A stretch of DNA of 55,998 nt. Origin: Rickettsiales bacterium (GTDB lineage Bacteria > Pseudomonadota > Alphaproteobacteria > Methylaequorales > Methylaequoraceae). The stretch spans positions 1 to 55,998 of the forward strand of contig NZHE01000021.1 in NCBI GenBank assembly GCA_002691145.1. The letters run 5' to 3'. Position 1 is the stretch's first letter, and each line of letters starts with the position of its first letter. This document shows, in pieces, positions 3,827-38,298 of this stretch. The position numbers and the translations under genes are program-made. Below the pieces are notes generated by a model. It worked only from the letters and a program-made list of their open reading frames with translations. It did not search any database and had not been told where the DNA came from.

Positions 3827-3900
3827 TTTAATTTTTTCATAACGTTAATGATTCTTACATTATATATTATAAATAATTATTAAAGCACTATAACAAAATT

Positions 3901-4566: not shown

Positions 4567-4692
4567 CTATATTTTTATTTTTTCTGTAAAAAAACTATTT
4601 ATTTCTGATAATACTGAATATATTGTTATCAAGGCTATTATTACAGCAATAGTTCCGATTAAATACAAATACTTTTGAAAATTATTATCCAT
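4567..4692 (-). CDS. Possible 41-aa single-pass membrane protein
   Basis: A short ORF fills the gap between gph and sua5 on the opposite strand. It starts at an ATG (4692) with GAGA-type purines about 15 nt upstream and stops exactly against the gph stop codon. The peptide starts MDNNFQKYLYLIGT and contains one hydrophobic segment (about 8-28), then a charged tail (FFTEKIKI). Length and hydrophobicity suggest a small inner-membrane protein. I do not recognise it. In such an AT-rich genome a short hydrophobic ORF could arise by chance, so conservation in relatives is the deciding evidence. Confidence 0.42.
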   Translation of the reverse strand: MDNNFQKYLYLIGTIAVIIALITIYSVLSEINSFFTEKIKI

Positions 4693-4824
4693 ATTTCAAT
4701 ATATCTCTCATTCAAGTTGTAATCAAAGTAATTTAGATATGGCTTTTAATAAGAAATTTATATTAAAAATAGTAAAAATATATTAAACATTTGTTATTTT
4801 TAAATTTAGATTTTGGAGAAAACA

Positions 4825-5775
4825 TTGAGTTTACAAAAAGAATCAGTTTTATCAATTAAATCCGCGCTTGAATTTTTAGCGAAAGGTCAACTGATCTCAG
4901 TAGCTACTGAGACAGTATATGGTTTGGTAGGAGATAGTTCAAATTCTGAATCTATTAATAAGATATATAAATTAAAAAAGAGGCCTACAAATAATCCACT
5001 TATAATACATGTTAATTCAATCGAAATGGCAAAAAAAATTTCTCATTTTAATAGGGATGCTGTTACGCTTGCGAAATGTTTTTGGCCGGGACCCTTAACG
5101 TTGATTCTAAATGTTAAAAAAAATAAACTCGTGTGCAGTAAAGCCATAGCAAATTTAAGAACCATAGCTGTAAGAATGCCACAAAAAAAAATTTTTTTAG
5201 AGATCATAAAAAGATTTAATAAACCATTAGCAGCACCAAGCGCAAATATGAGTGGTTATATTTCACCCACTAAAGCCGAACATGTTAATGATTCCTTTAA
5301 AAATAATTTAGGAGTAATTATTGATTCTGGGAAGTGCAAATATGGACTAGAATCAACAATAGTTAACTTAGCAAAAAAACCTTACAAAATTGAGAGAATT
5401 GGTATTATTGATGAACATAATATCTTTTCAAAAACTAAATTAAATGTAAAAGGATTTAAAAAGAGTAAATTATTAATTTCTCCAGGACAACTCAAACATC
5501 ATTATTCACCAAACACACCTATAGAACTGAATGTAAAAATACCAGTAAAAGATACTGCATTTCTATCCTTTGGATTAGATTACGATTCATCAATCGAAAA
5601 TTCATTAAACTTGTCCAGGAAAGGAAGCTTAAGCGAAGCTGCATTTAATTTATTTGATTATATGAGAAGGTTGGATAAACTAAATCTAAAAAAAATTTTA
5701 GTTTCTCCGATTCCAAACAAGGGAATAGGTATTGTAATTAATGAAAAATTAAAAAAAGCAAGTTTTAAAAAATGA
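4825..5775 (+). CDS. sua5: Threonylcarbamoyl-AMP synthase, Sua5 type
   Basis: Makes threonylcarbamoyl-AMP from threonine, bicarbonate and ATP for the t6A37 modification of ANN-decoding tRNAs. The YrdC domain (about 1-200) has YKLKKRPTNNPLIIHV and the APSANMSG motif near 140. The extra C-terminal Sua5 domain (to residue 316) begins after the SPGQLKHHYSP linker, which marks Sua5 over the shorter TsaC. I choose the TTG at 4825 because a GGAG lies 6 nt upstream of it. An earlier TTG at 4813 is in frame but overlaps that GGAG. The stop overlaps the next gene's start as ATGA, implying translational coupling. Confidence 0.92.
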   Translation: MSLQKESVLSIKSALEFLAKGQLISVATETVYGLVGDSSNSESINKIYKLKKRPTNNPLIIHVNSIEMAKKISHFNRDAVTLAKCFWPGPLTLILNVKKNKLVCSKAIANLRTIAVRMPQKKIFLEIIKRFNKPLAAPSANMSGYISPTKAEHVNDSFKNNLGVIIDSGKCKYGLESTIVNLAKKPYKIERIGIIDEHNIFSKTKLNVKGFKKSKLLISPGQLKHHYSPNTPIELNVKIPVKDTAFLSFGLDYDSSIENSLNLSRKGSLSEAAFNLFDYMRRLDKLNLKKILVSPIPNKGIGIVINEKLKKASFKK

Positions 5776-7175
5776 ATATTCTAAAAAAATACAAAAGTTT
5801 AATATCTATTTTAGAAGATAATGAATACTCTATTGACAAACAAATTGTTAGTAAATATTGCATTGATTGGAGAAAAGATTATGAAGGAACATCTGAGATT
5901 ATTTTATTTCCAAAGTCAGTAGAAAAAATATCAAAAATAGTTTCTATTTGTTCTAAAAAAAAAATTCCTATAGTTCCACAAGGGGGAAATACAGGATTAG
6001 TTGGAGGTTCAGTTCCTAGAAAAAATAAAGGAGAAATTATTTTAAATCTTAAAAATCTTAATAAGATTAGAAACCTAAGTTCACTTGATTATTCATTAAT
6101 AGTAGAAAGCGGTTGCATACTGCAGTCAATTCATGACCACTTAAAAAAAAAGAGCTTACTTTTTCCTGTCTCCATGGGATCACGAGGTAGTTGTCAAATT
6201 GGAGGGAACATCGCTACAAATGCAGGGGGAGTGAATGTAATCAAATTTGGCTCATTGAGATCAAACATTATTGGTTTGGAAGCCGTAATGAACAATGGCC
6301 AAATTTTCTCACAATTAAATAATATAAAGAAAAATAATACTGGGTATGACTTAAAACAACTTTTAATTGGTTCAGAGGGGACACTTGGGATTATCACTGC
6401 AGCAAATTTTAAGATTTATCCTTCATCTTTAAACAATAAAGTAATTTTTGCCAGCTTTAAATGTTTCAACTCATTAATGGATTTTTATTTTAATATCACT
6501 AAAACTTTTAGCTCTTCAATTTCAAGTTTTGAATACATTAATCAAGAATCTATGAATATTGTTTTAAAACATTACCCAAAATTAGGAAAAATTTTTAATG
6601 AGCAAAATTGTTATTGTTTAATTGAGGTTTCAAATTACAATGCAATCCCAAACTTTGATAATTATGTAATTTGCAACGTTCATAAATTTTCTTCGATTGC
6701 TGAAGACATTATCATTTCTAAATCAGAGAGTGAAAATATTAAAATTTGGCAATATAGAGAGCTGATTCCTCTAGCTGAGACCAAAGAGGGATTTTGTATA
6801 AAACATGATATATCAATTCCTTTAGAAAGTATGGAAAAATTCATTGATAAAACAATGTTTGAAATAAAAAAAATTGAACAAAATGTTAGATTAGTTAATT
6901 TTGGTCACCTAGGAGATAATAATCTTCATTTCAATATTATGTATATAACAAAAGAAAATTCGAAGAAATTAATTAAAAACTCAAGAAAAATTAATAATAT
7001 AATTTATGAAAAAGTAAAACAATATCAAGGAAGTTTTAGTGCAGAACATGGAATAGGACAGCTTAAGAAAAAACAACTAAAAATTTATAAAAGTAAGCTT
7101 GAGTATTCAAAAATGAAAGCAATAAAAAAAATTTTTGACCCAAATAATATTTTTAACCCAGGAAAAGTTATTTAA
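5772..7175 (+). CDS. FAD-linked D-2-hydroxyacid dehydrogenase (GlcD/D2HGDH type)
   Basis: A 467-aa flavoprotein of the vanillyl-alcohol-oxidase/GlcD family. The FAD-binding PCMH domain carries PQGGNTGLVGGSVP (about 73-86) and GNIATNAGGVNVIKFG (about 145-160). The C-terminal half has NFGHLGDNNLHFN and the terminal SAEHGIGQLKK motif of D-lactate, D-2-hydroxyglutarate and glycolate dehydrogenases. It oxidises a D-2-hydroxy acid and passes electrons to an acceptor. The closest match by pattern is D-2-hydroxyglutarate dehydrogenase, but the substrate cannot be fixed by reading. It is coupled to sua5 by a 4-nt overlap and converges on the glycosyltransferase gene with an 8-nt overlap. Confidence 0.85.
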   Translation: MNILKKYKSLISILEDNEYSIDKQIVSKYCIDWRKDYEGTSEIILFPKSVEKISKIVSICSKKKIPIVPQGGNTGLVGGSVPRKNKGEIILNLKNLNKIRNLSSLDYSLIVESGCILQSIHDHLKKKSLLFPVSMGSRGSCQIGGNIATNAGGVNVIKFGSLRSNIIGLEAVMNNGQIFSQLNNIKKNNTGYDLKQLLIGSEGTLGIITAANFKIYPSSLNNKVIFASFKCFNSLMDFYFNITKTFSSSISSFEYINQESMNIVLKHYPKLGKIFNEQNCYCLIEVSNYNAIPNFDNYVICNVHKFSSIAEDIIISKSESENIKIWQYRELIPLAETKEGFCIKHDISIPLESMEKFIDKTMFEIKKIEQNVRLVNFGHLGDNNLHFNIMYITKENSKKLIKNSRKINNIIYEKVKQYQGSFSAEHGIGQLKKKQLKIYKSKLEYSKMKAIKKIFDPNNIFNPGKVI

Positions 7176-8079
7176 TTAAAAATTTTTCGTAAATCTTATT
7201 AACGTTCTCACATAATTTTAGATGATCGACTGTCAAGCCAGTTAGACCAATTATGTAAAATTTCAACCATTTAGAAAAAAAACTACAGTTAGCTTCTCTT
7301 CTTGAGAATCTATATGCTCTCCCAGTTAACCTTCTAATAGCAAATCTTTTATATTTTTTATCTAATGAATGATTATCCTTTAAAAAAAGTTCTAGAGCTT
7401 TTGAAACTCTATAAATTTGATTAATCTTTTTTTCAGAAATTTGACCAGGAGCATTTTCTGGAAGTATTGCAATATATTCATTTAATTTATAAAATCCGCC
7501 ATATAGAGAAAGTCTTAGTGTTAAAGAGTACTCTTGAGAAAACTTTATCCTCTCATCACAACCTCCAGATTGTTTGCAAATTTTTGTGTTTACCAAAAAT
7601 TGTGACGGATTAAACATCGAATTTCTCATTGCTAGCTTAATTGGATCTTTTATTATTAGGTATTTATTGGAATTAACTTTGATATCCAATTTTAAATTAG
7701 ATAAATCCTCTACTTTACGTTGCAATCCATACACAAGATTACATTTTTTATTTTTTTGTATGATATTTAATAAAGTTTCAGTAGCTGAATTTATGATCAC
7801 ATCATCGGCATCAAGAAACTTTATAAATTGATGTTTAGCCTTTTTTATTCCAAAGTTTGTAGCATTTGCGGAACCTTTATTTTCCTGATTAAAAATATAA
7901 CAATTTTTTAAATCTTTTGTTTCAGATTTTAAAACTGATAACGACTTATCAGTCGAACCGTCGTTGACAAAAATAAATTCTCTCTCAAAATTTCCAGTCT
8001 GATTTCTAAGAGAATCGATTACATATTTTAGATATTTTTGCTTGTTGTAAACTGGGATTATGAATGAAACTGAGCTCAT
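7168..8079 (-). CDS. Family 2 glycosyltransferase
   Basis: A 303-aa GT-A fold enzyme of family GT2. The N-terminus SFIIPVYNKQKYLKYVI with FVNDGSTDKS (near 38-47) is the nucleotide-sugar binding part. FLDADDV (near 91-97) supplies the DXD metal-binding motif, and the acceptor-side segment follows. No membrane helix is evident, so it is probably a cytosolic or peripheral enzyme decorating a surface polysaccharide. It lies 2 nt downstream of the lipoprotein gene at 8082-8786, hence in the same transcript. The acceptor and donor sugar cannot be read from sequence. Confidence 0.85.
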   Translation of the reverse strand: MSSVSFIIPVYNKQKYLKYVIDSLRNQTGNFEREFIFVNDGSTDKSLSVLKSETKDLKNCYIFNQENKGSANATNFGIKKAKHQFIKFLDADDVIINSATETLLNIIQKNKKCNLVYGLQRKVEDLSNLKLDIKVNSNKYLIIKDPIKLAMRNSMFNPSQFLVNTKICKQSGGCDERIKFSQEYSLTLRLSLYGGFYKLNEYIAILPENAPGQISEKKINQIYRVSKALELFLKDNHSLDKKYKRFAIRRLTGRAYRFSRREANCSFFSKWLKFYIIGLTGLTVDHLKLCENVNKIYEKFLIK

Positions 8080-8081
8080 AA

Positions 8082-8786
8082 CTATTTTTCAAAACTTATA
8101 AGTTCCTTATAATATTCTTTTGTCCCAAAGGCTGAAGCTTTAGTAGACTCAATCCTTTTTTCTTTTACTAAACCAACATTATCGCATATCCATTCTTCAG
8201 ATATAATTTTAACTTTAATAGGTCCAGTTCTAGTATCAGCAATAAAATCAGCGTCTCCTTTACCTATAATGTGATTGCAATCATCAAACTCATTTTTATT
8301 TAATTTAATTTTCAAGTTTTTTGAAATCAATTTATATTTCATTTCAAAAACTGCTGATGGTTTAAAATCTCTTAAAGGTGGTTGATAACCTTTAGCGATG
8401 AAAAGCTGTGATATAGATACCCATTCTTTATTTTTAAAATCTAAAGATGGTATGATGACTTTATTTACGGGCTCATCAAACCCATTGTCAAAATTTAATC
8501 GTGCACCAATTCTTTGAAGGTTTTTTTCTTGTTTATTTTTAAAAAAAATAAAAATATTCCCATTTGAATAAATTTTAGTGTATTTAATGCCATCTTTTTT
8601 TTTATGAAGCTCGGTATTAGTTATTGTTAATCTTTTTTCTTCAGTGTTACCCGTATAATCAGAACTTATCAAAATTTTATAGTTCCATATTGATCCTAGT
8701 GAATGAGGAAAATAATTCTTTTCCTCACCCTTATTACAGGCACTTAAAAGAAAACAAAAAAAGAAGAAAAAAGACTTTTGATACAT
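8082..8786 (-). CDS. Predicted lipoprotein, paralogue of the lipoprotein at 33677
   Basis: A 234-aa predicted lipoprotein. From the ATG at 8786 the protein begins MYQKSFFFFFCFLLSAC, a signal peptide ending in a lipobox with Cys17. A longer frame to 8828 would run into tRNA-Phe and bury the signal, so I reject it. The mature part starts with NYFPHSLGSIWNYKI and has a conserved C-terminal region: CNHIIGKGDADFI, SEEWICDNVGLVKEKRIE and FGTKEYYKEL. The same pattern recurs in the lipoprotein at 33677-34384 (YFPL, W.Y.I, C..V.G.G, DWYAPNVGLIKS, LFGT). The start codon is only 9 nt after the CCA end of tRNA-Phe, so both probably share a transcript. Function unknown. Confidence 0.75.
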   Translation of the reverse strand: MYQKSFFFFFCFLLSACNKGEEKNYFPHSLGSIWNYKILISSDYTGNTEEKRLTITNTELHKKKDGIKYTKIYSNGNIFIFFKNKQEKNLQRIGARLNFDNGFDEPVNKVIIPSLDFKNKEWVSISQLFIAKGYQPPLRDFKPSAVFEMKYKLISKNLKIKLNKNEFDDCNHIIGKGDADFIADTRTGPIKVKIISEEWICDNVGLVKEKRIESTKASAFGTKEYYKELISFEK

Positions 8787-8795
8787 TTTGCTACG

Positions 8796-8871
8796 TGGTG
8801 CCCAAGGGAGGAATTGAACCACCGACACAGCGATTTTCAGTCGCTTGCTCTACCAACTGAGCTACTTGGGC
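8796..8871 (-). tRNA. tRNA-Phe (GAA)
   Basis: A full cloverleaf can be drawn on the minus strand. Acceptor GCCCAAG (8871-8865) pairs with CTTGGGC (8806-8800). The D-arm contains AGCTCAGTTGGTAGAGC, the anticodon loop is CTGAAAA with anticodon GAA at 8838-8836, and the T-loop is TTCAATT. Discriminator A is followed by an encoded CCA (8798-8796). It lies between maf and the lipoprotein gene, all on one strand, with the lipoprotein start codon 9 nt beyond the CCA. Confidence 0.97.
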
Positions 8872-8928
8872 AGAAAATAATTGTTTGTAATTTATCATAT
8901 TTTTATATTTAAAAAAAATAAAAAGCAA

Positions 8929-9524
8929 CTAATCATTGCTACTTTTTTTCCATCCTAAACCACTTAGCATATTATTAACATCATATAATGATAAACCTAC
9001 AACATTTGTGTAAGAACCTTTAATCTTTTTAACAAACATAACACCGAAAGATTGGATGGCATAACCACCTGATTTAAGAATACCGTCTCGAAGAAAAGTG
9101 TTATTATTTAATTCTTCCTTTGAAATTCTTTTAAAAAAAACTTCAGTTTTTACTAATCTTGTAACAATTTTTTTTTTGGTGATACTATGCATATACTGCC
9201 ATACACAAAATGTTTTTTTCCTGATAATTCATTTAAATATAATTTTATTTTATCTAATTCGTTTGTTTTTTTATAAATTTTTCCAGCTCTACAAACTACT
9301 GTATCTGCTGCAATTATAAAATGATTCTTGCAAACTTTGTCATTTATTACACTCAATGCTTTAAGTTTTGCAATATTTTTAAAGTTGTCATTTTCATTTT
9401 TAAAGTGTGATTCTTCATCATAATTATGTTCAATAATATGATCAGGTTTTATTCCAATCTGCTTAAGTAGGTCTAACCTTCTTTTGGAGGAGGAGGCTAA
9501 TATAATTTTACTTTTAAGAGCCAA
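8929..9524 (-). pseudogene. maf: maf nucleotide pyrophosphatase, frameshifted in a poly-A run
   Basis: Maf-family nucleoside triphosphate pyrophosphatases hydrolyse non-canonical or modified NTPs. The N-terminal part (9524 to about 9180) starts at a TTG, reads ILASSSKRRLDLLKQIGI, the family signature, and contains the catalytic IIAADTVV. It then shifts after SICIVSPKKK and stops at 9153. The rest continues in another frame (IVTRLVKTEVFFKRIS ... GGYAIQSFG ... VVGLSLYDV) to 8929. The join lies in a run of ten A's (T's at 9168-9177 on the + strand); one more A restores a full protein of about 197 aa. This may be a real mutation, slippage-dependent expression or a homopolymer error. It follows infA by 7 nt. 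Confidence 0.85.
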
Positions 9525-9531
9525 AGCTAAC

Positions 9532-9750
9532 TTATTTAAACCTAAAGGTTATTCTTCCTTTTGTTAAATCATAAGGGGTCATTTCTACGGTTACCCTATC
9601 TCCAGCTAGTACTCTAATTCTGAACTTTCTCATTTTTCCTGCAGTATGAGCTATAATTTCATGATCATTATCAAGCAGAACTCTGAACATTGCATTAGGC
9701 AACAATTCTTTTACTGTTCCATTGAATTCCATCACTTCTTCTTTTGCCAT
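9532..9750 (-). CDS. infA: Translation initiation factor IF-1
   Basis: A 72-aa IF-1, a single S1/OB-fold protein that sits in the ribosomal A site during initiation. It begins [19 protein letters not shown], with [16 protein letters not shown] and [15 protein letters not shown] at the end, all diagnostic. I take the ATG at 9750, preceded by AAGGGGAT, rather than the in-frame ATG 21 nt upstream, because 72 aa and the MAKEE start are the family norm. The gene sits downstream of hisD and upstream of maf; infA-maf order is common in Alphaproteobacteria. Confidence 0.97.
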
Positions 9751-9801
9751 AAAATCCCCTTTTACATTCAATATTATTATTTAATCAATAAATCAAGGTA
9801 T

Positions 9802-11103
9802 TTATTCCTTATTTTCAATCCGGGTTCTTATAGAAAGGGCATGAGCTCCAAGTCCTTCTTCCTCAGCAAGGTTGATTGCATCAGGACCTATTTTCTTCAA
9901 ACTATTAAAACTACATTTTACTAAAGACGTTCTTTTCATAAAATCAAGAACGTTTAAACCGGATGAGAATCTAGAGGTTTTATTTGTGGGTAGAACGTGG
10001 TTTGGTCCGGCTATATAGTCCCCAATTGCCTCAGGTGTATATTTTCCAATGAATATAGCTCCTGCATTATTTATTTTTTTTAGAAATCTTTCACAATTCT
10101 TAAAACTCAGTTCTAAATGTTCTGGAGATATCTCATTTATGAGTTGAATTGAATCACGTATATTTTGCACTAGAATAATTGCCCCAAAATTTTTGCAACT
10201 TGCCTCTGCTATCCTCCGTCTTTCAAGTTTTTTTAATTCTTCATTAAGACATTTGTTTACACTGTTAGCAAAATTTATGTCATCAGTTATTAATATTGAC
10301 TGTGCTAGTTCATCATGTTCGGCCTGAGATAGTAGGTCAATAGCAATATGTTTTGGATTATTATATTTGTCAGCAACCACTAAAATTTCTGAGGGTCCAG
10401 CAATCATATCTATTCCGACAGTTCCAAAAACTTGTTTTTTTGCTGAAGCTACGTACGCATTTCCTGGACCACAAATTTTATCTACTTTTTTTATAAACTT
10501 TGTTCCATACGCTAAAGCTGCTACTGCTTGTGCACCCCCGATTTTGTAGATTTCTTTAATTTTTAAAAGTTTAGCCGCTGCCAAAATTGTAGGATTAACA
10601 AAGCCACTTGGAGTTGGAACAACCATTACTATTCTTTTAACACCTGCAACTTGTGCTGGTATTACGTTCATAAGTACAGATGATGGATAAGACGCTTTTC
10701 CACCTGGAACATAGCAACCTACAGAACTGACGGGGTGCCATTGTACGCCTAAAGAGACCCCTTCATTGTCAGTATATAGTTCATTTTTTGGCAGCTGTCT
10801 TTTATGATAATTCCTTATTCTTGACATTGCATGTCTTAAAGCCTTTAATACTTTTCTATCAGTAATTTTAAAAGCTTGTTCTATCTCTTTAGTGCTCACA
10901 ACTAAATTATCAAATTTTTTTATTTTAAAATTATCAAACTTTATTGTGTAATCAACTATTGCATTATCTGATTTTTTTTTTACATTTTCAATGATTTCTC
11001 TTGATATACTGTCTATATTTTTCCCCGTAGATTCCCTATTTTTGAATATTTTTAAGAAATCCTGTTTAAAACTTTTTTTATTTTTATCTATTATTTTAAG
11101 CAT
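9802..11103 (-). CDS. hisD: Histidinol dehydrogenase
   Basis: Catalyses the last two steps of histidine synthesis, oxidising L-histidinol to L-histidine with NAD+ and Zn2+. The 433-aa protein has the usual length and conserved blocks: VPGGKASYPSSVLM, GGAQAVAALAYGT, KICGPGNAYV, GPSEILVVAD, SQAEHDELAQS and the C-terminal PEHLEL and AGPNHVLPTN. Histidine and acidic residues in SQAEHDE and in the AGPNH segment correspond to zinc and catalytic ligands. Its start overlaps the end of hisG by 8 nt. The operon order murA-hisG-hisD-infA matches that seen in many Alphaproteobacteria. Confidence 0.98.
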   Translation of the reverse strand: MLKIIDKNKKSFKQDFLKIFKNRESTGKNIDSISREIIENVKKKSDNAIVDYTIKFDNFKIKKFDNLVVSTKEIEQAFKITDRKVLKALRHAMSRIRNYHKRQLPKNELYTDNEGVSLGVQWHPVSSVGCYVPGGKASYPSSVLMNVIPAQVAGVKRIVMVVPTPSGFVNPTILAAAKLLKIKEIYKIGGAQAVAALAYGTKFIKKVDKICGPGNAYVASAKKQVFGTVGIDMIAGPSEILVVADKYNNPKHIAIDLLSQAEHDELAQSILITDDINFANSVNKCLNEELKKLERRRIAEASCKNFGAIILVQNIRDSIQLINEISPEHLELSFKNCERFLKKINNAGAIFIGKYTPEAIGDYIAGPNHVLPTNKTSRFSSGLNVLDFMKRTSLVKCSFNSLKKIGPDAINLAEEEGLGAHALSIRTRIENKE

Positions 11104-11746
11104 AAATTACTTTCTCAAATTTCTTTATCCATTTTGAAATTTCTTTATTCATTACTTTATAAGCAACTTTATTTACTATTAGTTTAGAAGTAATATTCAT
11201 TAAAACCTCTGTCTCTTCAAGCTCATTTTCTTTAAGAGTATTCCCACTAGAAACCAAATCAGCTATTACCGAACACATGTTTAGTTTTGGAGCGAGTTCA
11301 ATCGCTCCATTCAATTTGATACATTCAGCTCTTATTCCTTTATTAGCATAAAAATTTGTGATTATACTTTTATACTTTGTGGCAACCATAATATGACCAA
11401 TTTTAGAGTTTTTGTCATAATTTTCTCCTTTTCTTTTAGCGATCGATAATCTACATTTCCCAATTTTTAAATCTAAGACAGAATAAATTTGTTCATAATT
11501 AAATTCGCTTAATACATCGTTTCCAACGACACCTATCTGAGCAGCTCCAAAAGCTACAAATGTAGCTACGTCAAAGGCTCTAACTCTTATCAGTTTGAGA
11601 TTATTATAATTTGTATTAAAAAATAATTTTCTAGAATCTTCATTGAAAAATTCTTTCTCTGCATTGATTTTAGCTTCTTTCAGAATTGGTATCAATTCAT
11701 CTGATATTCTGCCTTTAGGTAAAGCAATAATGATTTTATTTTTCAT
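11096..11746 (-). CDS. hisG: ATP phosphoribosyltransferase, short form
   Basis: First enzyme of histidine synthesis, condensing ATP with PRPP. At 216 aa it is the short form (HisG-S), lacking the C-terminal ACT-like regulatory domain. Recognisable segments are IALPKGRISDELIPIL at the N-terminus, FGAAQIGVVGNDVL, and ADLVSSGNTLKENEL near 164-178, the PRPP-binding loop. Short forms need the HisRS-like regulatory partner HisZ for activity, and no hisZ lies in this window, so it must be elsewhere. Located 1 nt after murA and overlapping hisD by 8 nt. Confidence 0.97.
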   Translation of the reverse strand: MKNKIIIALPKGRISDELIPILKEAKINAEKEFFNEDSRKLFFNTNYNNLKLIRVRAFDVATFVAFGAAQIGVVGNDVLSEFNYEQIYSVLDLKIGKCRLSIAKRKGENYDKNSKIGHIMVATKYKSIITNFYANKGIRAECIKLNGAIELAPKLNMCSVIADLVSSGNTLKENELEETEVLMNITSKLIVNKVAYKVMNKEISKWIKKFEKVIYA

Positions 11747-11747
11747 C

Positions 11748-13013
11748 CTAACTCTTTAATCTTTTAATTTGAGCATTACAATTAGATAATTTTTTTTCAA
11801 GATTTTCATATCCTCTATCCAAATGATAAACCCTTCTTATTATGGTTTCGCCTCTAGCCATCAGACCTGCTATCACTAGTGAAGAAGATGCTCTTAAATC
11901 CGTTGCCATCACCGGTGCTCCATAAATATTTTTTTTACCACGTATATAAACTTTCGAACCTTTAATATTTATATCTGCTCCCATTCGATTTAATTCTGAA
12001 ACATGCATGAATCTATTTTCAAATATTGTTTCCTCTATAACCGAAAGACCCTTGGATCTTGAAAGTACCGCCGTTAATTGGGCTTGAAGATCAGTTGGGA
12101 ATTCTGGAAAAGGCCCAGTCTTAATATTTACTTTATCCAGAAGTATATTTTTTGATTCTACAAGCAGCGAATTATTATTTTCATATTTAAATTGTAAATT
12201 AGTAAAAAGTTCAAGAGTTTTTTTTAAATTTTGAATTACTGAATTATTTAGTTTTTTTATTTTTAAGCTACCAGAACATCCTAATAAAGCTAAAATATAA
12301 GTTCCAGCCTCAATTCGGTCTGGCATAACAGAAAAATTACATCCTGTTAATTTTTTTTTTCCAAAAATCTCTAATTTTCTAGAACCAACTCCTTTTATTT
12401 CTGCTCCCATTTTATTTAAACAATTACATAAATCCTCTACCTCAGGTTCCATCGCAGCATTTTTAATTATAGTTTTTCCTGTAGCCAATGTGGCTGCCAT
12501 TAATATATTTTCGGTAGCGCCCACTGAAGAGAACGGCAAATCTATTTCAGTTCCAAATAATCCTTTTTTAACGTTTCCTTTAACATACCCACCCTCAATC
12601 TCGAAATTTGCTCCTAGTTTCTCTAATCCAACTAAATGCATATTTATTGGTCTTGAACCTATTGCACATCCTCCTGGCAAAGATACTTTAGCACTTCCAT
12701 ACCGAGCTAGCAAAGGTCCAAGTACAAGAAAAGAAGCTCTCATTTTTCTTACAAGATTATAATCTGCAAAGATATTTTTTGGTTTTTTACTTATAATCTT
12801 TATTTCATTTTCAGAGAAAGAATATTCTGAGTTTAATGATTTTAATAAGCTTAACATTGACGTTACATCTGAGAGCTTTGGGACATTTGATAAACACATT
12901 TGGTCATCTGTTAATAAAGTGCAAGCTAATATAGGCAGAGCTGAATTTTTCGAACCACTTATGCTTATTTCACCTTGCAAGGGTTTACCACCTTTGATTT
13001 GAATTTGATCCAT
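11748..13013 (-). CDS. murA: UDP-N-acetylglucosamine 1-carboxyvinyltransferase
   Basis: First committed step of peptidoglycan synthesis, adding enolpyruvate from PEP to UDP-GlcNAc. The 421-aa protein has the EPSP-synthase-like double fold. Landmarks are the SGSKNSALPILA start (about 19-30), MRASFLVLGPLLARYG, LPGGCAIGSRPINMHL with the PEP-binding Cys (GGCAIG, the fosfomycin target position), and the C-terminal ATDLRASSSLVIAGLMA. It lies 3 nt after dcd and 1 nt before hisG. Together with glmSU and the mre cluster it shows a normal peptidoglycan wall. Confidence 0.98.
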   Translation of the reverse strand: MDQIQIKGGKPLQGEISISGSKNSALPILACTLLTDDQMCLSNVPKLSDVTSMLSLLKSLNSEYSFSENEIKIISKKPKNIFADYNLVRKMRASFLVLGPLLARYGSAKVSLPGGCAIGSRPINMHLVGLEKLGANFEIEGGYVKGNVKKGLFGTEIDLPFSSVGATENILMAATLATGKTIIKNAAMEPEVEDLCNCLNKMGAEIKGVGSRKLEIFGKKKLTGCNFSVMPDRIEAGTYILALLGCSGSLKIKKLNNSVIQNLKKTLELFTNLQFKYENNNSLLVESKNILLDKVNIKTGPFPEFPTDLQAQLTAVLSRSKGLSVIEETIFENRFMHVSELNRMGADINIKGSKVYIRGKKNIYGAPVMATDLRASSSLVIAGLMARGETIIRRVYHLDRGYENLEKKLSNCNAQIKRLKS

Positions 13014-31312: not shown

Positions 31313-31825
31313 ATGGATCTCAATGAATTAGAATCAATTATTACTAAGATTCCGGACTATCCAAAACCTGGAATACTGTTTTACGACATTTCGCCTGTTA
31401 TTAATAATGCTGAAGCCTTTTCTTTTACTATAAATAAGATAAAAGAAAAAATTGTTAGTTATAAAATAGATAAAATTGCAGCTATTGATGCACGAGGATT
31501 TATATTTGGAGCTGCCGTTGCACAGAAGATGAATCTTGGACTTACCTTAATTAGAAAAATTGGAAAACTTCCTGGAAAGGTACTAAAAAAAAAATATGAT
31601 TTAGAATATGGAACTAATACTTTAGAAGCAAACCCTTTATATTTAAATGGGAGAGTTGCACTTATTGACGATTTATTAGCTACTGGCGGGACAGCAAAGG
31701 CTTCAATCGAACTAATAAGAGAGTCAGGTGCAGAAGTTACTTGCTTTTGCACATTTATTGAACTTGAATTTTTATCTGGTAAAGATAATTTAGATGTACC
31801 ATATGAATCAATAATTAAATATTAA
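31313..31825 (+). CDS. apt: Adenine phosphoribosyltransferase
   Basis: Salvages adenine by transferring phosphoribose from PRPP to give AMP. The 170-aa length is standard. The protein begins MDLNELESIITKIPDYPKPG, with the phosphate-side loop AAIDARGFIFGAAVA and the PRPP signature VALIDDLLATGGTAK (115-129). The acidic pair DD in the PRPP loop is intact. Only 1 nt separates its stop from the start of the MotA/ExbB-like channel gene, so it heads an operon with four membrane or secreted proteins; a functional link to them is not obvious. Confidence 0.96.
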   Translation: MDLNELESIITKIPDYPKPGILFYDISPVINNAEAFSFTINKIKEKIVSYKIDKIAAIDARGFIFGAAVAQKMNLGLTLIRKIGKLPGKVLKKKYDLEYGTNTLEANPLYLNGRVALIDDLLATGGTAKASIELIRESGAEVTCFCTFIELEFLSGKDNLDVPYESIIKY

Positions 31826-31826
31826 A

Positions 31827-32537
31827 ATGACAAGAGATCACAAATTATTTTTAAAATGGTTGCTTCAGTTTAGTCTAATTTTCTTTTTCTTTTATTTTAT
31901 CTGGGATCAAGGTTTAATAGGTGAACTTATATCGAAAGATAGAAGTTACATAACAAGCACTATATTAATAATTTTTTTGATAATATGTTGCCATTGTGCT
32001 TATGCAACATTTCTGATTTCTTCAGAACTGAACAAAGCGCATGTCATTAAAAAAAATTTACTTCGACCTAATGTAAAGTTAAAAGTAATAGACAACAATC
32101 TTATATTATCTTCAAAAGGTGTTGTATCTGAAGGAATTGTATCAGATTATTTTAAAGATTTATTGGATTTAAAAAAAAATGGTATCAATGGTCACAGTCA
32201 AATTTTAGATACTTATGTTAAAAAAACTAATGGTTATTATGAATTAGGATGGTTTAGTGCTGATTTAATGCTTAAATTAGGATTGATTGGTACAGTAATT
32301 GGATTCATAATAATGTTAGGTTCATTATCAGATATTACAACATTTGACGTAACTTTGTTACAAGGAGTGCTTACAACTATGGGAAGCGGAATGGGTGTGG
32401 CCTTATATACAACACTGTCTGCTTTAGTTACAGGGGTACTTATTGCTCTTCAATATTTTAATTTAGAAAGTGGTTGTGAGGAATTGTTTTCAGTACTCAA
32501 TCAAATTTCTGAAGTTAGTATTAACAAAAGTTTTTAG
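31827..32537 (+). CDS. MotA/TolQ/ExbB-type proton channel subunit
   Basis: A 236-aa inner-membrane protein with four hydrophobic segments: about 10-29, 40-64, 148-170 and 182-208. The third and fourth, LKLGLIGTVIGFIIMLGSL and GVLTTMGSGMGVALYTTLSA, are the MotA/TolQ/ExbB channel domain, with conserved GLIGTV.G and the Gly/Ala/Thr-rich pore helix. A cytoplasmic loop of about 80 residues lies between TM2 and TM3. Such subunits form a proton- or sodium-driven motor with an ExbD/TolR/MotB partner, and the next gene looks like that partner. No tolA, tonB or flagellar gene is near. Confidence 0.82.
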   Translation: MTRDHKLFLKWLLQFSLIFFFFYFIWDQGLIGELISKDRSYITSTILIIFLIICCHCAYATFLISSELNKAHVIKKNLLRPNVKLKVIDNNLILSSKGVVSEGIVSDYFKDLLDLKKNGINGHSQILDTYVKKTNGYYELGWFSADLMLKLGLIGTVIGFIIMLGSLSDITTFDVTLLQGVLTTMGSGMGVALYTTLSALVTGVLIALQYFNLESGCEELFSVLNQISEVSINKSF

Positions 32538-33134
32538 ATGGCTTATTCAAGTAGAAGAATAAAGGCTGATCCATTTACTGATTTATTATTTAATGTTTTG
32601 CTTGCATTTACATTGTTAATGTTTCTTGCGATCATATTCATGAACCCTATTCCAAAAACAGGAGTAATTAATCCGAAAGCTGAATATATAATTACAATTA
32701 GTTGGAAAGATAATAGTCCTGATGATATTGATACCTATGTGCAAAGTCCAACTGGAGAATTAGTGTGGTTTAGAGGAACCGAGGCAGGTTTTGTTCATCT
32801 GGATAGAGATGACAGGGGATTATTAAATGATACCATAGAGGTTAATGGTAAAAAGATACAAAATCCCCTTAATCAAGAAGTAGTTACAATTAGAGCAGTG
32901 GTGCCAGGAGAGTATATAGTTAACGTTCACTACTATGCCACAAAAACCAACCAACCAGTAGATGTTAATGTGAAAGTTGAAAAAGTTAATCCACAACTTG
33001 AAGTAATTTATTATGGTACAATTCCACTTGAAAAAAAAGGCGTAGAAAAAACTGCTACAAGATTTAATATATCTCAAGGTGGAAAAGTTAATGTAAGTGG
33101 AAATTTATTTAAAAAATTAGTTCCAGAAAGTTAA
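32538..33134 (+). CDS. ExbD/TolR-like protein with DUF2135-like periplasmic domain
   Basis: A 198-aa protein starting directly after the channel gene's stop codon. A short cytoplasmic N-terminus leads into a single TM (about 17-37) with DPFTDLLFNVLLAFTLLMF. Asp15 sits where ExbD and TolR carry their proton-carrying Asp (PFxD). The periplasmic part is a beta-rich domain with SWKDNSPDDIDTYVQSPTGE and VPGEYIVNVHYYA, a pattern I recall from DUF2135-type sandwich domains, instead of the usual ExbD fold or peptidoglycan-binding OmpA domain. It is probably the stator partner of the preceding channel. Assignment is by pattern. Confidence 0.72.
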   Translation: MAYSSRRIKADPFTDLLFNVLLAFTLLMFLAIIFMNPIPKTGVINPKAEYIITISWKDNSPDDIDTYVQSPTGELVWFRGTEAGFVHLDRDDRGLLNDTIEVNGKKIQNPLNQEVVTIRAVVPGEYIVNVHYYATKTNQPVDVNVKVEKVNPQLEVIYYGTIPLEKKGVEKTATRFNISQGGKVNVSGNLFKKLVPES

Positions 33135-33152
33135 TAATTAGGAGGAGAAATT

Positions 33153-33677
33153 ATGGATTCAACAGTTTTATCAATAGTAGTAAGTTATACAGTACTTGCT
33201 TTTCTTTTGTTAATATTCAATTTAAGAACATCTTATCATTGGTTATTAAAATCTTTATTAATCGCATCCGTAACCTTATTTTACATACTTACTTATAATT
33301 CTTTTAAGGAAATTCTTGGATGGCCAACCAAAGAAACTTTACCCGATCGCTTCAGACTCGTTTCAGCTCAAATTTACGAACCGAATGTTATAACAAATTC
33401 TGAGGGATCAATTTATATTTGGATAACTGATATGAATGATAAATCAGGTTTGGGTATTCCAAGATCTCATGAATTACCATACTCAAAAGAAGTTCATGAA
33501 CAGGTTTCAAAAGCGTCCATTAATTTAAAGAATGGTGTTCCTCAAATGGGAGAATTACAGGTTGAAGAGGAAAAAGTAGGACTTATTACAAAGGTACTTG
33601 AGAAAAAAAAGACAATAGCTACAAGTACAAATTTAAAGTTTTTTGATATGCCAAATCAATTATTACCTGAAAAATAA
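33153..33677 (+). CDS. Two-TM membrane protein of the channel module
   Basis: A 174-aa protein with two N-terminal hydrophobic segments (about 4-22 and 29-48) followed by a 125-residue soluble domain, probably periplasmic. The soluble part has PTKETLPDRFRLVSAQIYEP, YIWITDMNDKSG and PRSHELPYSKEVHEQVS. No known catalytic motif is recognised. A strong Shine-Dalgarno AGGAGG lies at 33141-33146, 7-8 nt before its ATG, much better than those of its neighbours, so it may be translated at higher level. It shares one base with the lipoprotein gene that follows (TAATG). Confidence 0.7.
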   Translation: MDSTVLSIVVSYTVLAFLLLIFNLRTSYHWLLKSLLIASVTLFYILTYNSFKEILGWPTKETLPDRFRLVSAQIYEPNVITNSEGSIYIWITDMNDKSGLGIPRSHELPYSKEVHEQVSKASINLKNGVPQMGELQVEEEKVGLITKVLEKKKTIATSTNLKFFDMPNQLLPEK

Positions 33678-34384
33678 TGAATTTTATTCTTACCTGTGCT
33701 TTTGTCCTTTTATCTTTTCTGGCTATAAGTTGCGGTGAAAATAGAACCGACTATTTTCCCTTAAAAAATAAAAAGCTATGGGCTTACAATATTCAAATTA
33801 TTCCAAGTGAGGAAGATAAAATTAACTATAAGAAAACTAACTTCTCACTAGAAAAGCAAATTATTGAGCGAGGTAAAACCAAAATTGATGTTTATCCAGT
33901 AATTCGAGAAAATGAAACTGTATATTATTACTCTAGGAATAAAGACGGTATTTTCAGAGAAGCAGTACAATTTAAGCAAAGCAAACCTTTAAGTTTGGAA
34001 GAAAAAAAGAAAACAGTTTTAAAATTTCCACTGCAAGTCGGAAACAAATGGTCCGCTCCTAGCAAAACTTATTTAATTTTAAGAAGGTATGCATACTTTG
34101 ACTACAGAGCAAATACAAATTTTTTACTAAACCTTGAATTAACTAGTAATACTGCAACAGTAAAAGTTCCAGCTGGAACATTTAGAAATTGTTTAAAGGT
34201 GGAGGGATACGGAGAAACAACTTTTATTGGTGATAGAGAAATTGGTTCAATAAAAATTACAATAAAGACCTCAGATTGGTATGCACCAAATGTTGGCTTA
34301 ATAAAAAGTGTAAGAGTAGAAGGTACTGATAGTGATTTATTTGGTACAAGTGAAATGATACAAGAATTAGAAGATTTTAAGTAA
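33677..34384 (+). CDS. Predicted lipoprotein of the channel module
   Basis: A 235-aa lipoprotein: the signal peptide MNFILTCAFVLLSFLAISC ends in a lipobox with Cys19. The mature part begins ENRTDYFPLKNKKLWAYNI and ends with VPAGTFRNCLKVEGYGETTF, DWYAPNVGLIKSVRVE and LFGTSEMIQELEDF. This layout repeats that of the lipoprotein at 8082-8786, so the two are paralogues. The region resembles lipoproteins that cap a beta-sheet with the motif 'C..V.G.G ... W.....VGL.K' (seen here, not looked up). It is the fourth gene of the block and likely sits in the outer membrane facing the periplasmic domains of its neighbours. Confidence 0.75.
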   Translation: MNFILTCAFVLLSFLAISCGENRTDYFPLKNKKLWAYNIQIIPSEEDKINYKKTNFSLEKQIIERGKTKIDVYPVIRENETVYYYSRNKDGIFREAVQFKQSKPLSLEEKKKTVLKFPLQVGNKWSAPSKTYLILRRYAYFDYRANTNFLLNLELTSNTATVKVPAGTFRNCLKVEGYGETTFIGDREIGSIKITIKTSDWYAPNVGLIKSVRVEGTDSDLFGTSEMIQELEDFK

Positions 34385-34388
34385 TTTC

Positions 34389-35405
34389 ATGATTTTTAAA
34401 AATTTAGATATTTATTTTTCATTAATTATTATATTTGTGATTTTATATTTTGGAAAGTTTTTACTCCTTCCATTATTCTTTTCCATTTTTATATTCATAA
34501 TATTGAAATCCTTTTCAAAAAAAATTTCAAAAATCAATTTTTACGTATTTAAAATTGGATATGGTTCTGCTTTTGTAATCTCATCTCTTTTTTTATTGTC
34601 TTTAATATACTTTTTTGGAATATTGCTTAATGAGAATTTATCGAATGTGATATTTAATTCAGAGTTATACCAATCTAACTTAACATTCATATTTAATAAA
34701 TTTAAAGATTTTAGTGAGAGAAATGTGCCATTTCTGACTAATAAATTTGTTTTTGATCTTGATTTTACAAATCTATTTACCAAAGTTTTAAATTCTTTTA
34801 CTAATCTAGCCAGTAACTTTTCTATCATAATTTTGTATTTAATTTTCATAATTATTGAGGAAAAATTTTTCAAAATAAAAATTCAAAATTTTTTTTCTAC
34901 TACTTCTACAAAAAAGATAATTGAAAAAATAAATTTAGAGATCTTTAATTACTTTCAAATTAAAACGTTTACAAGTCTATTAACTGGTTTATCCACTTTT
35001 TTTATTATGAAATTATTTAATAGCGATCTAGCAGTTTTTTTTGGAATATTGTCATTCATTTTAAATTTTATACCCTTTTTAGGATCACTGTTGTCTGTAA
35101 TTTTGCCTTTTATTTTTTCATTAATACAATTTCTTAATCCTTTTGAGTCCTCATTAATAATAGCTTTTCTTTTAATTATTCAGATAAGCGTTGGTAATTT
35201 TATCGAACCAAAACTTATGAGCAAATCACTAAATTTAAGCCCGATGATTATGCTAATTTTTTTAAGTTTAATGGGAAAATTATGGGGGATAGGCGGTATG
35301 TTTTTAAGTGTGCCTTTTTTAGTAATTTTACTAATAGTATTTAGTAACATTAAGTCTACTAAAAAAATTGCTATATTTTTATCTGAAAAAGGACAAATTA
35401 GTTAA
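34389..35405 (+). CDS. AI-2E/PerM family membrane permease
   Basis: A 338-aa polytopic membrane protein of the AI-2E transporter (PerM/YhhT/TqsA) family. Conserved C-terminal motifs are visible: FILNFIPFLGSLLSVILP, FIEPKLMSKSLNLSPMIML and GKLWGIGGMFLSVPF, with about eight hydrophobic segments. These proteins include exporters of small molecules and Na+/H+ antiporters, and substrate prediction is unreliable. It begins 4 nt after the lipoprotein gene and overlaps the convergent rodA by 27 nt, so it is the last gene of the apt operon. Confidence 0.87.
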   Translation: MIFKNLDIYFSLIIIFVILYFGKFLLLPLFFSIFIFIILKSFSKKISKINFYVFKIGYGSAFVISSLFLLSLIYFFGILLNENLSNVIFNSELYQSNLTFIFNKFKDFSERNVPFLTNKFVFDLDFTNLFTKVLNSFTNLASNFSIIILYLIFIIIEEKFFKIKIQNFFSTTSTKKIIEKINLEIFNYFQIKTFTSLLTGLSTFFIMKLFNSDLAVFFGILSFILNFIPFLGSLLSVILPFIFSLIQFLNPFESSLIIAFLLIIQISVGNFIEPKLMSKSLNLSPMIMLIFLSLMGKLWGIGGMFLSVPFLVILLIVFSNIKSTKKIAIFLSEKGQIS

Positions 35406-36515
35406 ATTTAAATTATCTTCTCTGTACAATTTTTGACTTAAATCTGTAGAAAGAATTAAACCAAAACCAAAAAAATATGTAATCATTGAGGAACCTCCGA
35501 ATGAGACAAGCGGAAGAGGTATTCCCACTACAGGGGTCAGTCCCATTACCATTGCCATATTTAAAGCTCCTGCAATAAAAAAATTTGTAATTATTGCTAC
35601 ACCTATTATTTTTGAAAAAAAAATTTTTTCATTTGCAATACTGATTATATAACCGATACAACAAATTAAAATAAACAGACCAATTACAGATATTGTTCCT
35701 AAAAATCCAAATTCTTCTCCTAACATAGAAAAAATGAAATCTGTTTTTTTTTCTGGTAAAAAGTCTAGGTGTGATTGAGTACCTTTTAGCCATCCTTTCC
35801 CTAAAAAACCTCCGGATCCTATTGCGATTTGAGATTGAATTATATGATATCCTGTACCTAATGGATCCTTGTAAGGATCGAAGAATGTTAATAATCTTTG
35901 TTTTTGATATAAATGTAATGAATTCCAAAAAATAGGCGATAATAAAAAGAAACCCGCAAGGCAGGAAAAGAAAAATTTAATATTAATTCCAACAATAAAG
36001 AAAACAACAGTACCAATAAAAAGTAATATTAATGAGGTTCCTAAATCTGGCTGATTCAATACAATAAAAAAAGGAATAAAAATCAATGTAATTGGAAAAA
36101 CCAAAAATAAATAATCTCTAAAATTATCAATTTTTTTTTCGTCAAAAAATTTCGCAAGCGCTAAAATTAAAAAAATTTTCATTATTTCAGAGGGTTGAAT
36201 ATTTATGCCTAAAACATTAATCCATCTTCTAGACCCCTTGCCAATGTAACCATAAAAAGTTGCATAAATTAGTATAATTACACCTACCAAATATAAAATA
36301 AATGAATATTTTTGCCAGAAATTTATATTTATCAAACCTACAGACAACATAATAAAAAAACCAAAAAGAAATTTTAAAATTTGAGAATAGGTAAAACCTA
36401 AACCATCAGATTTTGTTGCACTAAAAATCATAATAATTCCTACACTTGATAACGAACATATTAAAAATATTAATGTCCAATGTAGGTTTTTAAACTTAAA
36501 AAAAAATTCACTCAT
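35379..36515 (-). CDS. rodA: Rod shape-determining SEDS glycosyltransferase RodA
   Basis: A 378-aa SEDS-family peptidoglycan polymerase that works with PBP2 in elongation. About ten hydrophobic segments; conserved pieces are GSRRWINVLGINIQPSEIMK, LNQPDLGTSLILL, the extracellular KTDFIFSMLGEEFGFLG and GLTPVVGIPLPLVSFGGSS, with the essential Asp in QPDLGT. Its start overlaps the end of mrdA by 4 nt, matching the usual mrdA-rodA coupling. Its 3' end overlaps the convergent permease gene. Confidence 0.96.
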   Translation of the reverse strand: MSEFFFKFKNLHWTLIFLICSLSSVGIIMIFSATKSDGLGFTYSQILKFLFGFFIMLSVGLININFWQKYSFILYLVGVIILIYATFYGYIGKGSRRWINVLGINIQPSEIMKIFLILALAKFFDEKKIDNFRDYLFLVFPITLIFIPFFIVLNQPDLGTSLILLFIGTVVFFIVGINIKFFFSCLAGFFLLSPIFWNSLHLYQKQRLLTFFDPYKDPLGTGYHIIQSQIAIGSGGFLGKGWLKGTQSHLDFLPEKKTDFIFSMLGEEFGFLGTISVIGLFILICCIGYIISIANEKIFFSKIIGVAIITNFFIAGALNMAMVMGLTPVVGIPLPLVSFGGSSMITYFFGFGLILSTDLSQKLYREDNLNLTNLSFFR

Positions 36516-38298
36516 GATTTTTTCTTAAAAGTAAAATCTAAAATATCTCTAGCCATTGGTGCCGCAACCTTTGAACCACTCCCATGATGTTCTACTATAA
36601 CCGAGATAACATATTCCGGTTTTTCATAAGGAGCAAATCCAGTGAATATTGAATGATCTCTTAATTTGTATGGTAATTCTTTATTTTCTAGAACACCACT
36701 CTCTCTCTCTAGCAAGCTGATTCTTCTAACTTGTGATGTTCCGGTTTTACCTGCCATTTGAATAGCGTTATTTTTTAACTTTGATGAAAATGCAGTTCCG
36801 TTGTATTTATTCACAACATCAAACATTGATTTTTTTATAATTTCAAATGATTTTTTTGGGAAATTAAGTTGCTCAAATTCTATTTTTTTTTTGTCTGACA
36901 ATATTCTAGGTATTATTTTCTTACCTGTAGCAATCCTTGCAGTCATCGTAGCTATTTGAAGTGGGGTGGAAAGTGTAAAGCCTTGTCCAATAACTGCATT
37001 GTAGGTCTCTCCTAAATGCCATGAATCTCCCTTATTTCTTTTTTTCCAATTTTCGTCTGGCATAATTCCTTTAGATTCTCCAGGAAGATCAATGTTAGTT
37101 TTCATTCCAATTGAAAAATTTTTAGCTACACTTGCTAACTCGTTTATGCCTAGAGTGTTAGCAAGAGAGTAAAAATAACAATCACATGATTCTTTAATAG
37201 CTTTATTTAAATCAACATACCCGTGACCCTTTCTCTTCCAACAATGAAAGGTGTGATTACCCAAAGGTTGTTTTCCACTACAAAAATATTTATGTTTAAT
37301 ATCAAAATCTTTCCTTTCCAAAATCGCCATCCCAACAACTAATTTAAATGTTGAGCCTGGAGAATACAAACCTGAAATGGTTCTATTTAAAAGAGGATTT
37401 AAAGGATCTGATTGTAAAGATCTCCAAGTACTATTTTTTACTCCATAACTAAACTCATTAATATCGAAAGATGGTGATGAAACCATGGCTATTATAGCCC
37501 CTGAATTGCAATTCATAAGTATTATACTTCCAGCTTTATCTCTAAGTTTATTAAATGAAAATTCTTGAATTTTAGAGTCTATATTAACTTCAATATTATT
37601 TCCAGAAATACTATTTTTAGAATTTAAATTTCTAACAACTTTTCCAGAAGAGTTAGATTCAACTTTCTGCCATCCTTCTTTTCCTATTAATACTTTATTA
37701 TAAATTTTTTCTATTCCTGTTTTACCAACTTTTAGTTCTGGTAACTGCCTTTTTTTGCTTTTTTTTGTGAATCGTAACCAACGTATCCAATTACATGTGA
37801 ATAAGCATAATTATCTTTATATGAACGTACCTTTTTTTTATTAATATCTAATAATGGAAATCTATGAGAAAAATGTGAAAATATCTCAAGCTCATCCCAT
37901 GAAAGGTTTTTTTTAATAGTTAGATAATCATCTAGTGAGTTTCTAGAACTATTCTTTTTAAAATCCTTAACATCTTCTTCGGAAATAAGAATAATTTTTC
38001 TTAGATCAGTAACAATTTTGTTCATTTGATCTTTTTTATCTTTCAGTAAAATAATTTGATAATCATTTCTATTTTCAGCAATTTTGTTTTTGTTTTGATC
38101 AAAAATAATACCTCTCTGGGGATATATAACTTTTATTTTAATTCTATTTATTTCTGATAGTTCTCCAAATTTTGATTTATTTACAATCTGTAAATAGTAT
38201 AGTTTACCCACTAACAAAGTTGTAAAAAGTCCTTTACCCAGTCCAAGCAGGAATAATCTTCTTTGAAACTTTTTTAAATCATCAAATTCTTTACTCAT
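36512..38298 (-). pseudogene. mrdA: Penicillin-binding protein 2, frameshifted in a poly-A run
   Basis: Elongation-specific transpeptidase PBP2, partner of RodA. The N-terminal part (38298-37732, 188 aa) has one TM (about 17-35) and the dimerisation region, reading YPQRGIIFDQNKNKIAENR and SHVIGYVGYDS. It shifts after QKKAKKG. The other frame continues LPELKVGKTGIEKIYNK and on to the catalytic part, with SPGSTFKLVVGMA (SxxK), the SCD motif and MAGKTGTSQ (KTG). Adding one A in either the A8 or A7 run at about 37750-37768 restores a single ORF of about 595 aa. The transpeptidase motifs are intact, so the break looks recent, bypassed or technical. Confidence 0.88.

Follow-up and report, generated by a model that had tools for sequence, protein, structure and literature searches.

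The window analysed here is a stretch of 55,998 nucleotides (nt) from a marine Rickettsiales bacterium (contig NZHE01000021.1 of assembly GCA_002691145.1, which comprises 2.03 Mb in 29 contigs), and it carries four closely packed genes on the + strand, g1 to g4, which encode a putative membrane module. g1 (31827-32537) encodes a MotA/TolQ/ExbB-type channel subunit of 236 amino acids (aa), and g2 (32538-33134) encodes a subunit of 198 aa with a single transmembrane segment (TM), an Asp at position 15 (D15), and an all-beta periplasmic domain of ~150 aa that resembles DUF2135/YfaP. The third gene, g3 (33153-33677), encodes a protein of 174 aa that has two TMs at its N-terminus along with a small periplasmic domain, and g4 (33677-34384) encodes a lipoprotein of 235 aa. 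The open reading frames (ORFs) confirmed the layout given in the original prediction, which had been made from the DNA letters of the stretch: the genes abut, with a spacing of 0 nt between g1 and g2, 18 nt between g2 and g3, and an overlap of 1 nt between g3 and g4. We computed the protein families, conservation, operon structure, phage carriage, and genomic linkage of the module. The results make it probable that g1, g2, and g3 constitute a self-contained inner-membrane machine of the MotA/TolQ/ExbB class, driven by the influx of ions, of which we infer the stoichiometry, ion flow, rotation, and job.

Pfam assigned g1 to the MotA_ExbB family (PF01618) with 29.7 bits against a curated cut-off of 22.9 bits, so the channel domain originally predicted for this protein stood. 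Hydropathy analysis gave four TMs at about residues 7-25, 46-64, 147-165, and 190-208, with the predicted cytoplasmic loop between the second and the third. When a profile of 34 g1 homologues was compared with the PDB, MotA was the best match (E = 8e-7), followed by PomA, TolQ, and ZorA. Polar residues are conserved in the last two helices; T196 was invariant and T156 was present in at least 90% of the 34 rows. Among viral g1 proteins, T156 was kept in 65/67, and the column of T196 contained 62 Thr, 4 Asn, and 3 Ser. A core-domain tree, unrooted and sampling few known members, separated all g1 proteins of the module from 13 TolQ/ExbB/MotA proteins by one branch (96/90). Judged from these sequence comparisons, g1 is a genuine member of the MotA/TolQ/ExbB superfamily.

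Hydropathy analysis of g2 revealed one TM (16-34), which is preceded by D15 in the motif DPFTDLLFN. Using hhalign, we compared a profile built from 50 bacterial g2 proteins with ExbD and with the DUF2135/YfaP proteins gathered here. With ExbD, the TM alone was aligned, RIKADPFTDLLFNVLLAF with EINVTPFVDVMLVLLIIF, Asp over Asp, and this match was by itself not significant. The periplasmic part of g2 matched YfaP-type DUF2135 proteins over 77 columns (Prob 90.7, E = 1.2e-6), and the aligned region takes in the DxD and G-Y-x-V strands. By Pfam, the match of g2 to DUF2135 (PF09906) was weak and below the cut-off (15.6 vs 22 bits, E = 0.018), and 9/39 g2 homologues matched this family weakly (best E = 0.007). 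The AlphaFold model of g2 contained nothing but strands after the TM, at modest confidence (mean predicted local distance difference test score, pLDDT, of 64). These data agree with the initial description of g2 as a protein with one TM, an Asp placed like that of ExbD/TolR, and a periplasmic part that is similar to DUF2135 and not to ExbD/TolR. Neither a Pfam match to ExbD (PF02472) nor a profile match to the ExbD periplasmic part was detected in g2. As for the traits of MotB, no Pfam match to an OmpA-type peptidoglycan-binding domain or a plug was obtained, and no helix followed the TM in the AlphaFold model. Thus, the absence of Pfam matches and the profile-profile comparison, in which only the TM aligned, ruled out g2 as ExbD/TolR or MotB.

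A sequence search of the PDB with g2 gave nothing significant, and no PDB entry was matched at E<=0.001 when the models of g2 and g3 were used for structure searches. Viral models gave loose beta-sandwich matches, which were left unused because the g2 model is weak. In the wider set of homologues, W56, D63, D65, L88, R90, D91, G94, E114, G124, E170, and F176 were invariant, and the acidic cluster among them looks like a possible site for a divalent or trivalent metal. Searches of the literature for DUF2135 by name and for TTHA1873, which covered it in part, retrieved nothing relevant.

g3 stands beside g1 and g2 in both bacteria and phages. Hydropathy analysis found the first helix only, and the AlphaFold model showed two N-terminal helices, in keeping with the two TMs and periplasmic domain predicted for this protein. 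Its homologues share the motifs LGWP and G-IYLW...PRAY, and no Pfam family was matched. g3 represents a new family of two-TM proteins.

Homologues of g2 were present in 29/32 genomes of the bacterial family, 56/385 of the class, and 16/398 of the phylum sample, and the module is spread across Alphaproteobacteria and some Beta- and Gammaproteobacteria. At 88 bacterial g2 loci, g1 was adjacent in 83, g3 in 80, and both in 79. Some of the nine loci lacking g1 and/or g3 are cut by a contig end or too divergent to score, and four are solitary extra copies of g2 in two genomes of one family. Such solitary or tandem extra copies without g1 or g3 lie at L095 (3114-4215), L123 (9489-10040), and L124 (594-1142); in one tandem copy, most of the TM stretch with the Asp is missing. 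At viral loci, which are described below, g1, g2, and g3 occurred in this order in 83/86, and the other three were cut by the contig end before g1; the 86 loci include a few near-duplicates. The occurrence of all three genes together at 79/88 bacterial and 83/86 viral loci is not due to chance. Even where the module takes a more distant form, g2 still had g1 and g3 adjacent to it, and the order at one locus (L125) was g1-g3-g2. The gene order is therefore kept far outside the genus, as had been anticipated.

The expectation that all four genes would always stay together failed for g4. This gene was near g2 at 34/88 bacterial loci and at none of the 86 viral loci. Since g1-g3 persist even in the distant form and g4 is patchy, the four-gene unit was dropped in favor of a module of three genes, with g4 as an accessory that is optional and occurs in the HIMB59-like family and in a few others. 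That g4 encodes a lipoprotein was borne out by an N-terminal signal/TM in hydropathy analysis and a lipobox-type Cys19 that is invariant in 6 homologues; the protein is weakly DUF3108-like (Pfam DUF3108_like, 29.0 bits, cut-off 27). Elsewhere in the window (8082-8828, - strand) is a gene for a second lipoprotein, which is 27% identical to g4 over 223 aa (E = 2e-19); the g4 family is thus represented at least twice there. Of the predicted output, a periplasmic beta-domain together with an outer-membrane lipoprotein, the beta-domain is supported and the lipoprotein is not.

The nearest named relatives of the genome are uncultured Alphaproteobacteria, of which one bears the label HIMB59. Three further MotA_ExbB genes occur in the genome, each in its own locus. 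One belongs to a tolQ-tolR-tolA-tolB-pal-type cluster and one to an exbB-exbD-exbD cluster that includes a TonB-like gene, and the third is the motA of a motA-motB pair whose contig also has fliR and flhB. The module thus represents a fourth, separate system. No tonB, tolA, tolB, or pal gene adjoins it, as predicted; the Tol and Ton loci sit on other contigs. Like ExbBD and TolQR, the module combines a channel subunit of the MotA_ExbB family with an adjoining single-TM subunit that has an Asp at the equivalent helix position. It differs from them in having a DUF2135-like beta-sandwich instead of the ExbD/TolR fold, in lacking TonB, TolA, TolB, and Pal, and in having the third subunit g3 and a g1 with four predicted TMs that clusters apart. 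It is highly improbable that the module is an ordinary TolQR or ExbBD pair that has diverged beyond recognizable similarity. Although Pfam places g1 in the same superfamily, the canonical tolQR-AB-pal, exbBDD, and motAB genes coexist with it in the genome, g1 falls on a separate branch, neither Tol nor Ton has a counterpart of g3, and the profile comparisons contradict such an origin because the periplasmic part of g2 matches DUF2135 and not ExbD.

Among solved structures, g1 is nearest to the MotA/PomA stator subunits, with which it shares four TMs. Unlike the B subunits of MotAB and PomAB, g2 has no plug/linker or OmpA-type peptidoglycan-binding domain, and the true motAB genes lie elsewhere, beside fliR and flhB. 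The module also resembles the non-flagellar 'generic ion transporters' (GIT), in which the A and B genes likewise adjoin, the cytoplasmic domain is short, and a plug is lacking (PMC12505986). The parts of this 2025 survey of non-flagellar stator relatives consulted here point to many uncharacterized GIT variants with added domains. They place DUF3450 and DUF2341 on A subunits and give B subunits a compact peptidoglycan-binding fold, and they mention neither a DUF2135-type B subunit nor g3 nor carriage by phages (PMC12505986). ZorAB of the Zorya anti-phage defence system is likewise an ion-driven MotA/MotB-like pair. In contrast to ZorAB, the module has no cytoplasmic tail domain or effector genes, and phages themselves carry the cassette. 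No PADLOC match was obtained at E<=0.1, and NCBIfam ZorA_2 was matched at E = 0.44 only, so that Zorya or another defence system was ruled out by the PADLOC search. On present sequence evidence, the module belongs to the MotA/TolQ/ExbB superfamily by its g1, and it is without the defining periplasmic feature of ExbD/TolR, MotB, or Zorya.

The periplasmic domain of g2 is homologous to YfaP/DUF2135 of the Mag (YfaS) macroglobulin operon, whereas YfaP-type proteins have a signal peptide and no Asp-bearing TM helix. The module gives the DUF2135 domain a membrane-motor context. The macroglobulin family MG2 was absent from the genome of the window, which ruled out a macroglobulin partner, and from 13/18 other module-bearing genomes tested. 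Mag proteins are known to bind MagD in the periplasm (PMC5764988). In a Pseudomonas-like genome (G459), two DUF2135 genes flank an MG2 macroglobulin gene (L204, about 2530-12842). This operon agrees with the published mag operon in its number of genes and in the size of MagB, which suggests that MagA and MagF are DUF2135 proteins.

In the MotA/TolQ/ExbB family, five channel subunits ring two axle helices, and protonation of an axle Asp drives stepping (PMC9389320). D15 of g2 was invariant in the first 11 homologues, and it was present in 41/48 bacterial homologues readable at that column in the wider set and in 70/70 intact viral g2 proteins. The conserved Asp and Thr residues and the pairing of the genes suggest the same 5:2-type mechanism for the module. 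By analogy, g1 would most likely form the channel ring, a pentamer, around a dimer of g2, with protonation of D15, which lies in the helix of g2, as the driver of relative rotation or gating. g2 would carry its DUF2135/YfaP-like beta-sandwich into the periplasm in place of the TonB/TolA-coupled ExbD/TolR fold or an OmpA-type anchor. g3 may cap or couple g2 via its own small periplasmic domain, the second in the complex, and g4 would act as an optional outer-membrane or periplasmic accessory.

An unlikely alternative is that g1 and g2 form a gated channel, that is, a passive or regulated leak of protons or cations or a sensor of the proton-motive force, with g2 and g3 sensing the periplasm. The module encodes no TonB/TolA transducer or peptidoglycan anchor, and the g2 sandwich begins at most about 15 residues from the TM, with no long linker of the kind usual in motors, both of which fit a leak or sensor. 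However, with its Asp on the single-TM subunit and its Thr residues in the helices of the channel, the module shows the pattern of the rotary 5:2 family, in which conduction and rotation are coupled.

Several observations count against an ion-driven machine. The predicted conservation of D15 did not extend to a large-genome, probably Bradyrhizobium-like family and to G343, G338, and G367, in which it is replaced by Val or Ala; these members are not driven through this residue. The g1 of the betaproteobacterial type (L075 and L076, two rows) has Lys for T156 (GKVIGF), the structure model of g2 is weak, and the g3 model found no fold match in the structure search. D11, one helical turn from D15, usually remains in the g2 proteins lacking D15 and may substitute for it, so that these versions are possibly uncoupled or D11-driven. 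At the loci where D15 is Val or Ala (L078-L087, L106, L107, and L070), the rest of g2 and the Thr residues of g1 are kept. If the proposed machine exists, it would join the known 5:2-type motors, which power flagella, gliding, Ton/Tol transport, and Zorya defence, as another widespread one, with a DUF2135-type output subunit, which would be a new type of B subunit, and a new third subunit.

The module is also carried by tailed phages. When the proteins of 50,697 phage records were searched with g2, relatives were detected in 27 GenBank records, all rhizobial. In the five rhizobial phage records examined, the neighbors of g2 were a short g1 (113-148 aa) and g3, which were recognized by the bacterial profiles. 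When IMG/VR was scanned with the g2 alignment, 150 encoding stretches were obtained and 80 of them retained, which puts the number of IMG/VR contigs at 80 or more. The contigs carrying the cassette reach 328 kb, and a T4-type major capsid gene was present in 12/34 tested viral records, three phage isolates among them. When 17 viral loci were compared, the triad g1-g2-g3 was the only gene set common to at least four of them. The surrounding genes vary: SbmA/BacA, GDP-mannose dehydratase, and DnaK/ClpS genes were among them, and one T4-like group has a lysis-like cluster that includes a GH108 endolysin. In this group (L303, 9954-13923 of a 199,810-base IMG/VR contig; L228, L239, and L255), the triad directly follows genes for a one-TM protein and a small lipoprotein, which look like a spanin pair, and in L303 the GH108 endolysin gene lies just before this pair. 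Genes for SbmA/BacA-family transporters stand beside the module in L307, L311, and related very large viral contigs, and L307 additionally has a full-length DnaK gene and a ClpS-like gene there. A literature search for phages combined with MotA/TolQ/ExbB found no relevant paper and thus no earlier description of such a machine in phages; as coverage was partial, this absence is weak evidence.

In an unrooted tree of g2, the close bacterial form made up one clade (100/100) amid the viral diversity. One bacterial copy fell within a viral group, and the copy of phage 16-3 paired with that of G581, which is probably prophage-borne. The cassette is probably an autonomous unit that moves between bacteria and phages. 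These relationships bear on a further explanation, by which the module is primarily a viral membrane device, which might, for example, exclude superinfecting phages, time lysis, or protect the envelope during infection; the bacterial copies would then be domesticated or have a related role in protecting the envelope, and the linkage to dehydrogenase genes described below would be secondary. The greater diversity of g2 in viruses than in the close bacterial form, the nested bacterial copy, the pairing of phage 16-3 with G581, the cassette standing alone across very different phage contexts, and its position next to the spanin-like lipoprotein and one-TM protein and the GH108 endolysin in one T4-like group all speak for a viral device. 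Yet the neighbors differ between phage groups, hence there is no consistent link to lysis, and the unrooted tree does not fix the direction of transfer. Moreover, the identity of g2 within the bacterial family, which spans 86-92%, points to a host function. Taken together, a primarily viral device seems rather improbable. A virus-borne motor would raise the question of how a virus benefits when it consumes or steers the proton-motive force.

In several alphaproteobacterial families, the module lies among genes for methanol/ethanol dehydrogenases dependent on pyrroloquinoline quinone (PQQ) and genes of the associated ATP-binding cassette (ABC) system. The families found near it were TIGR03075, TIGR03861 (PedC permease), TIGR03863 (binding protein), TIGR03864 (ATPase), and TIGR03866 (beta-propeller). 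In the class sample of 385 genomes, a PQQ dehydrogenase was present in 27/31 genomes with the close form of the module vs 73/354 without it, and PedC in 19/31 vs 38/354. At the level of families, the dehydrogenase occurred in 13/14 families with the module vs 37 of approximately 157 without it (p about 4e-7). The close form was located within 15 kb of a PQQ-dehydrogenase or PedC permease gene in 15/31 genomes from 8 families. Since genomes are not independent, the family-level and physical counts weigh more than raw p-values. In Pseudomonas putida, PedA1A2BC is needed for lanthanide-dependent growth at low concentrations (PMC6839425). On its contig C8 (L213, 157000-176500), the genome of the window has a cluster in which the gene for a XoxF-like PQQ dehydrogenase is joined by genes for cytochrome c, for pqq biosynthesis, and for an ABC system of the PedABC type.

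The likeliest job of the module in bacteria, which we put forward tentatively, is support of periplasmic PQQ-dependent, often lanthanide-linked, alcohol oxidation. Such a job is called into question by the distant form, in which the association is weak (10/25 vs 90/360, p = 0.1), by the statistical nature of the link, by the separate contigs on which the HIMB59-like genome has the module and the dehydrogenase cluster, and by the viral copies, near which no PQQ-dehydrogenase gene was recognized. The phage cassette must work without these genes, which favors an action at the level of the envelope or a function needed during host shutdown. It may well be, with a chance somewhat short of even, that tailed phages (T4-like, very large marine, and rhizobial) carry a working motor that reshapes or guards the host envelope, and that bacteria use the same machine for periplasmic PQQ/lanthanide-dependent oxidation. 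The bacterial association would point to an unrecognized energized component of PQQ/lanthanide-dependent alcohol oxidation. Both this linkage and phage carriage go beyond the original prediction.

The tight spacing in the window extends past g1-g4. A co-directional apt-like phosphoribosyltransferase gene (31313-31825, + strand) ends 1 nt upstream of g1, and a co-directional gene for an AI-2E-family transporter (34389-35405, + strand) starts 4 nt downstream of g4. The six-gene block apt-g1-g2-g3-g4-AI-2E was kept in HIMB59-like relatives wherever the contig was long enough and is conserved only in this family; the two flanking genes are therefore family-specific neighbors outside the module. 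Within this family, g2 was the most conserved gene of the block, with a median identity of 88.6%, followed by g1 (75.7%), g3 (61.5%), apt (52.9%), and g4 (48.2%). Other neighbors vary between lineages, with mreBCD/PBP2/rodA in the HIMB59-like family and an L,D-transpeptidase-like gene in Gammaproteobacteria. A search of plasmids found only distant Azospirillum copies, on unannotated records. The PBP2 gene (mrdA) of the window (36512-38298, - strand) is split into ORFs of 334 and 188 aa, and relatives have a single gene of ~595 aa.

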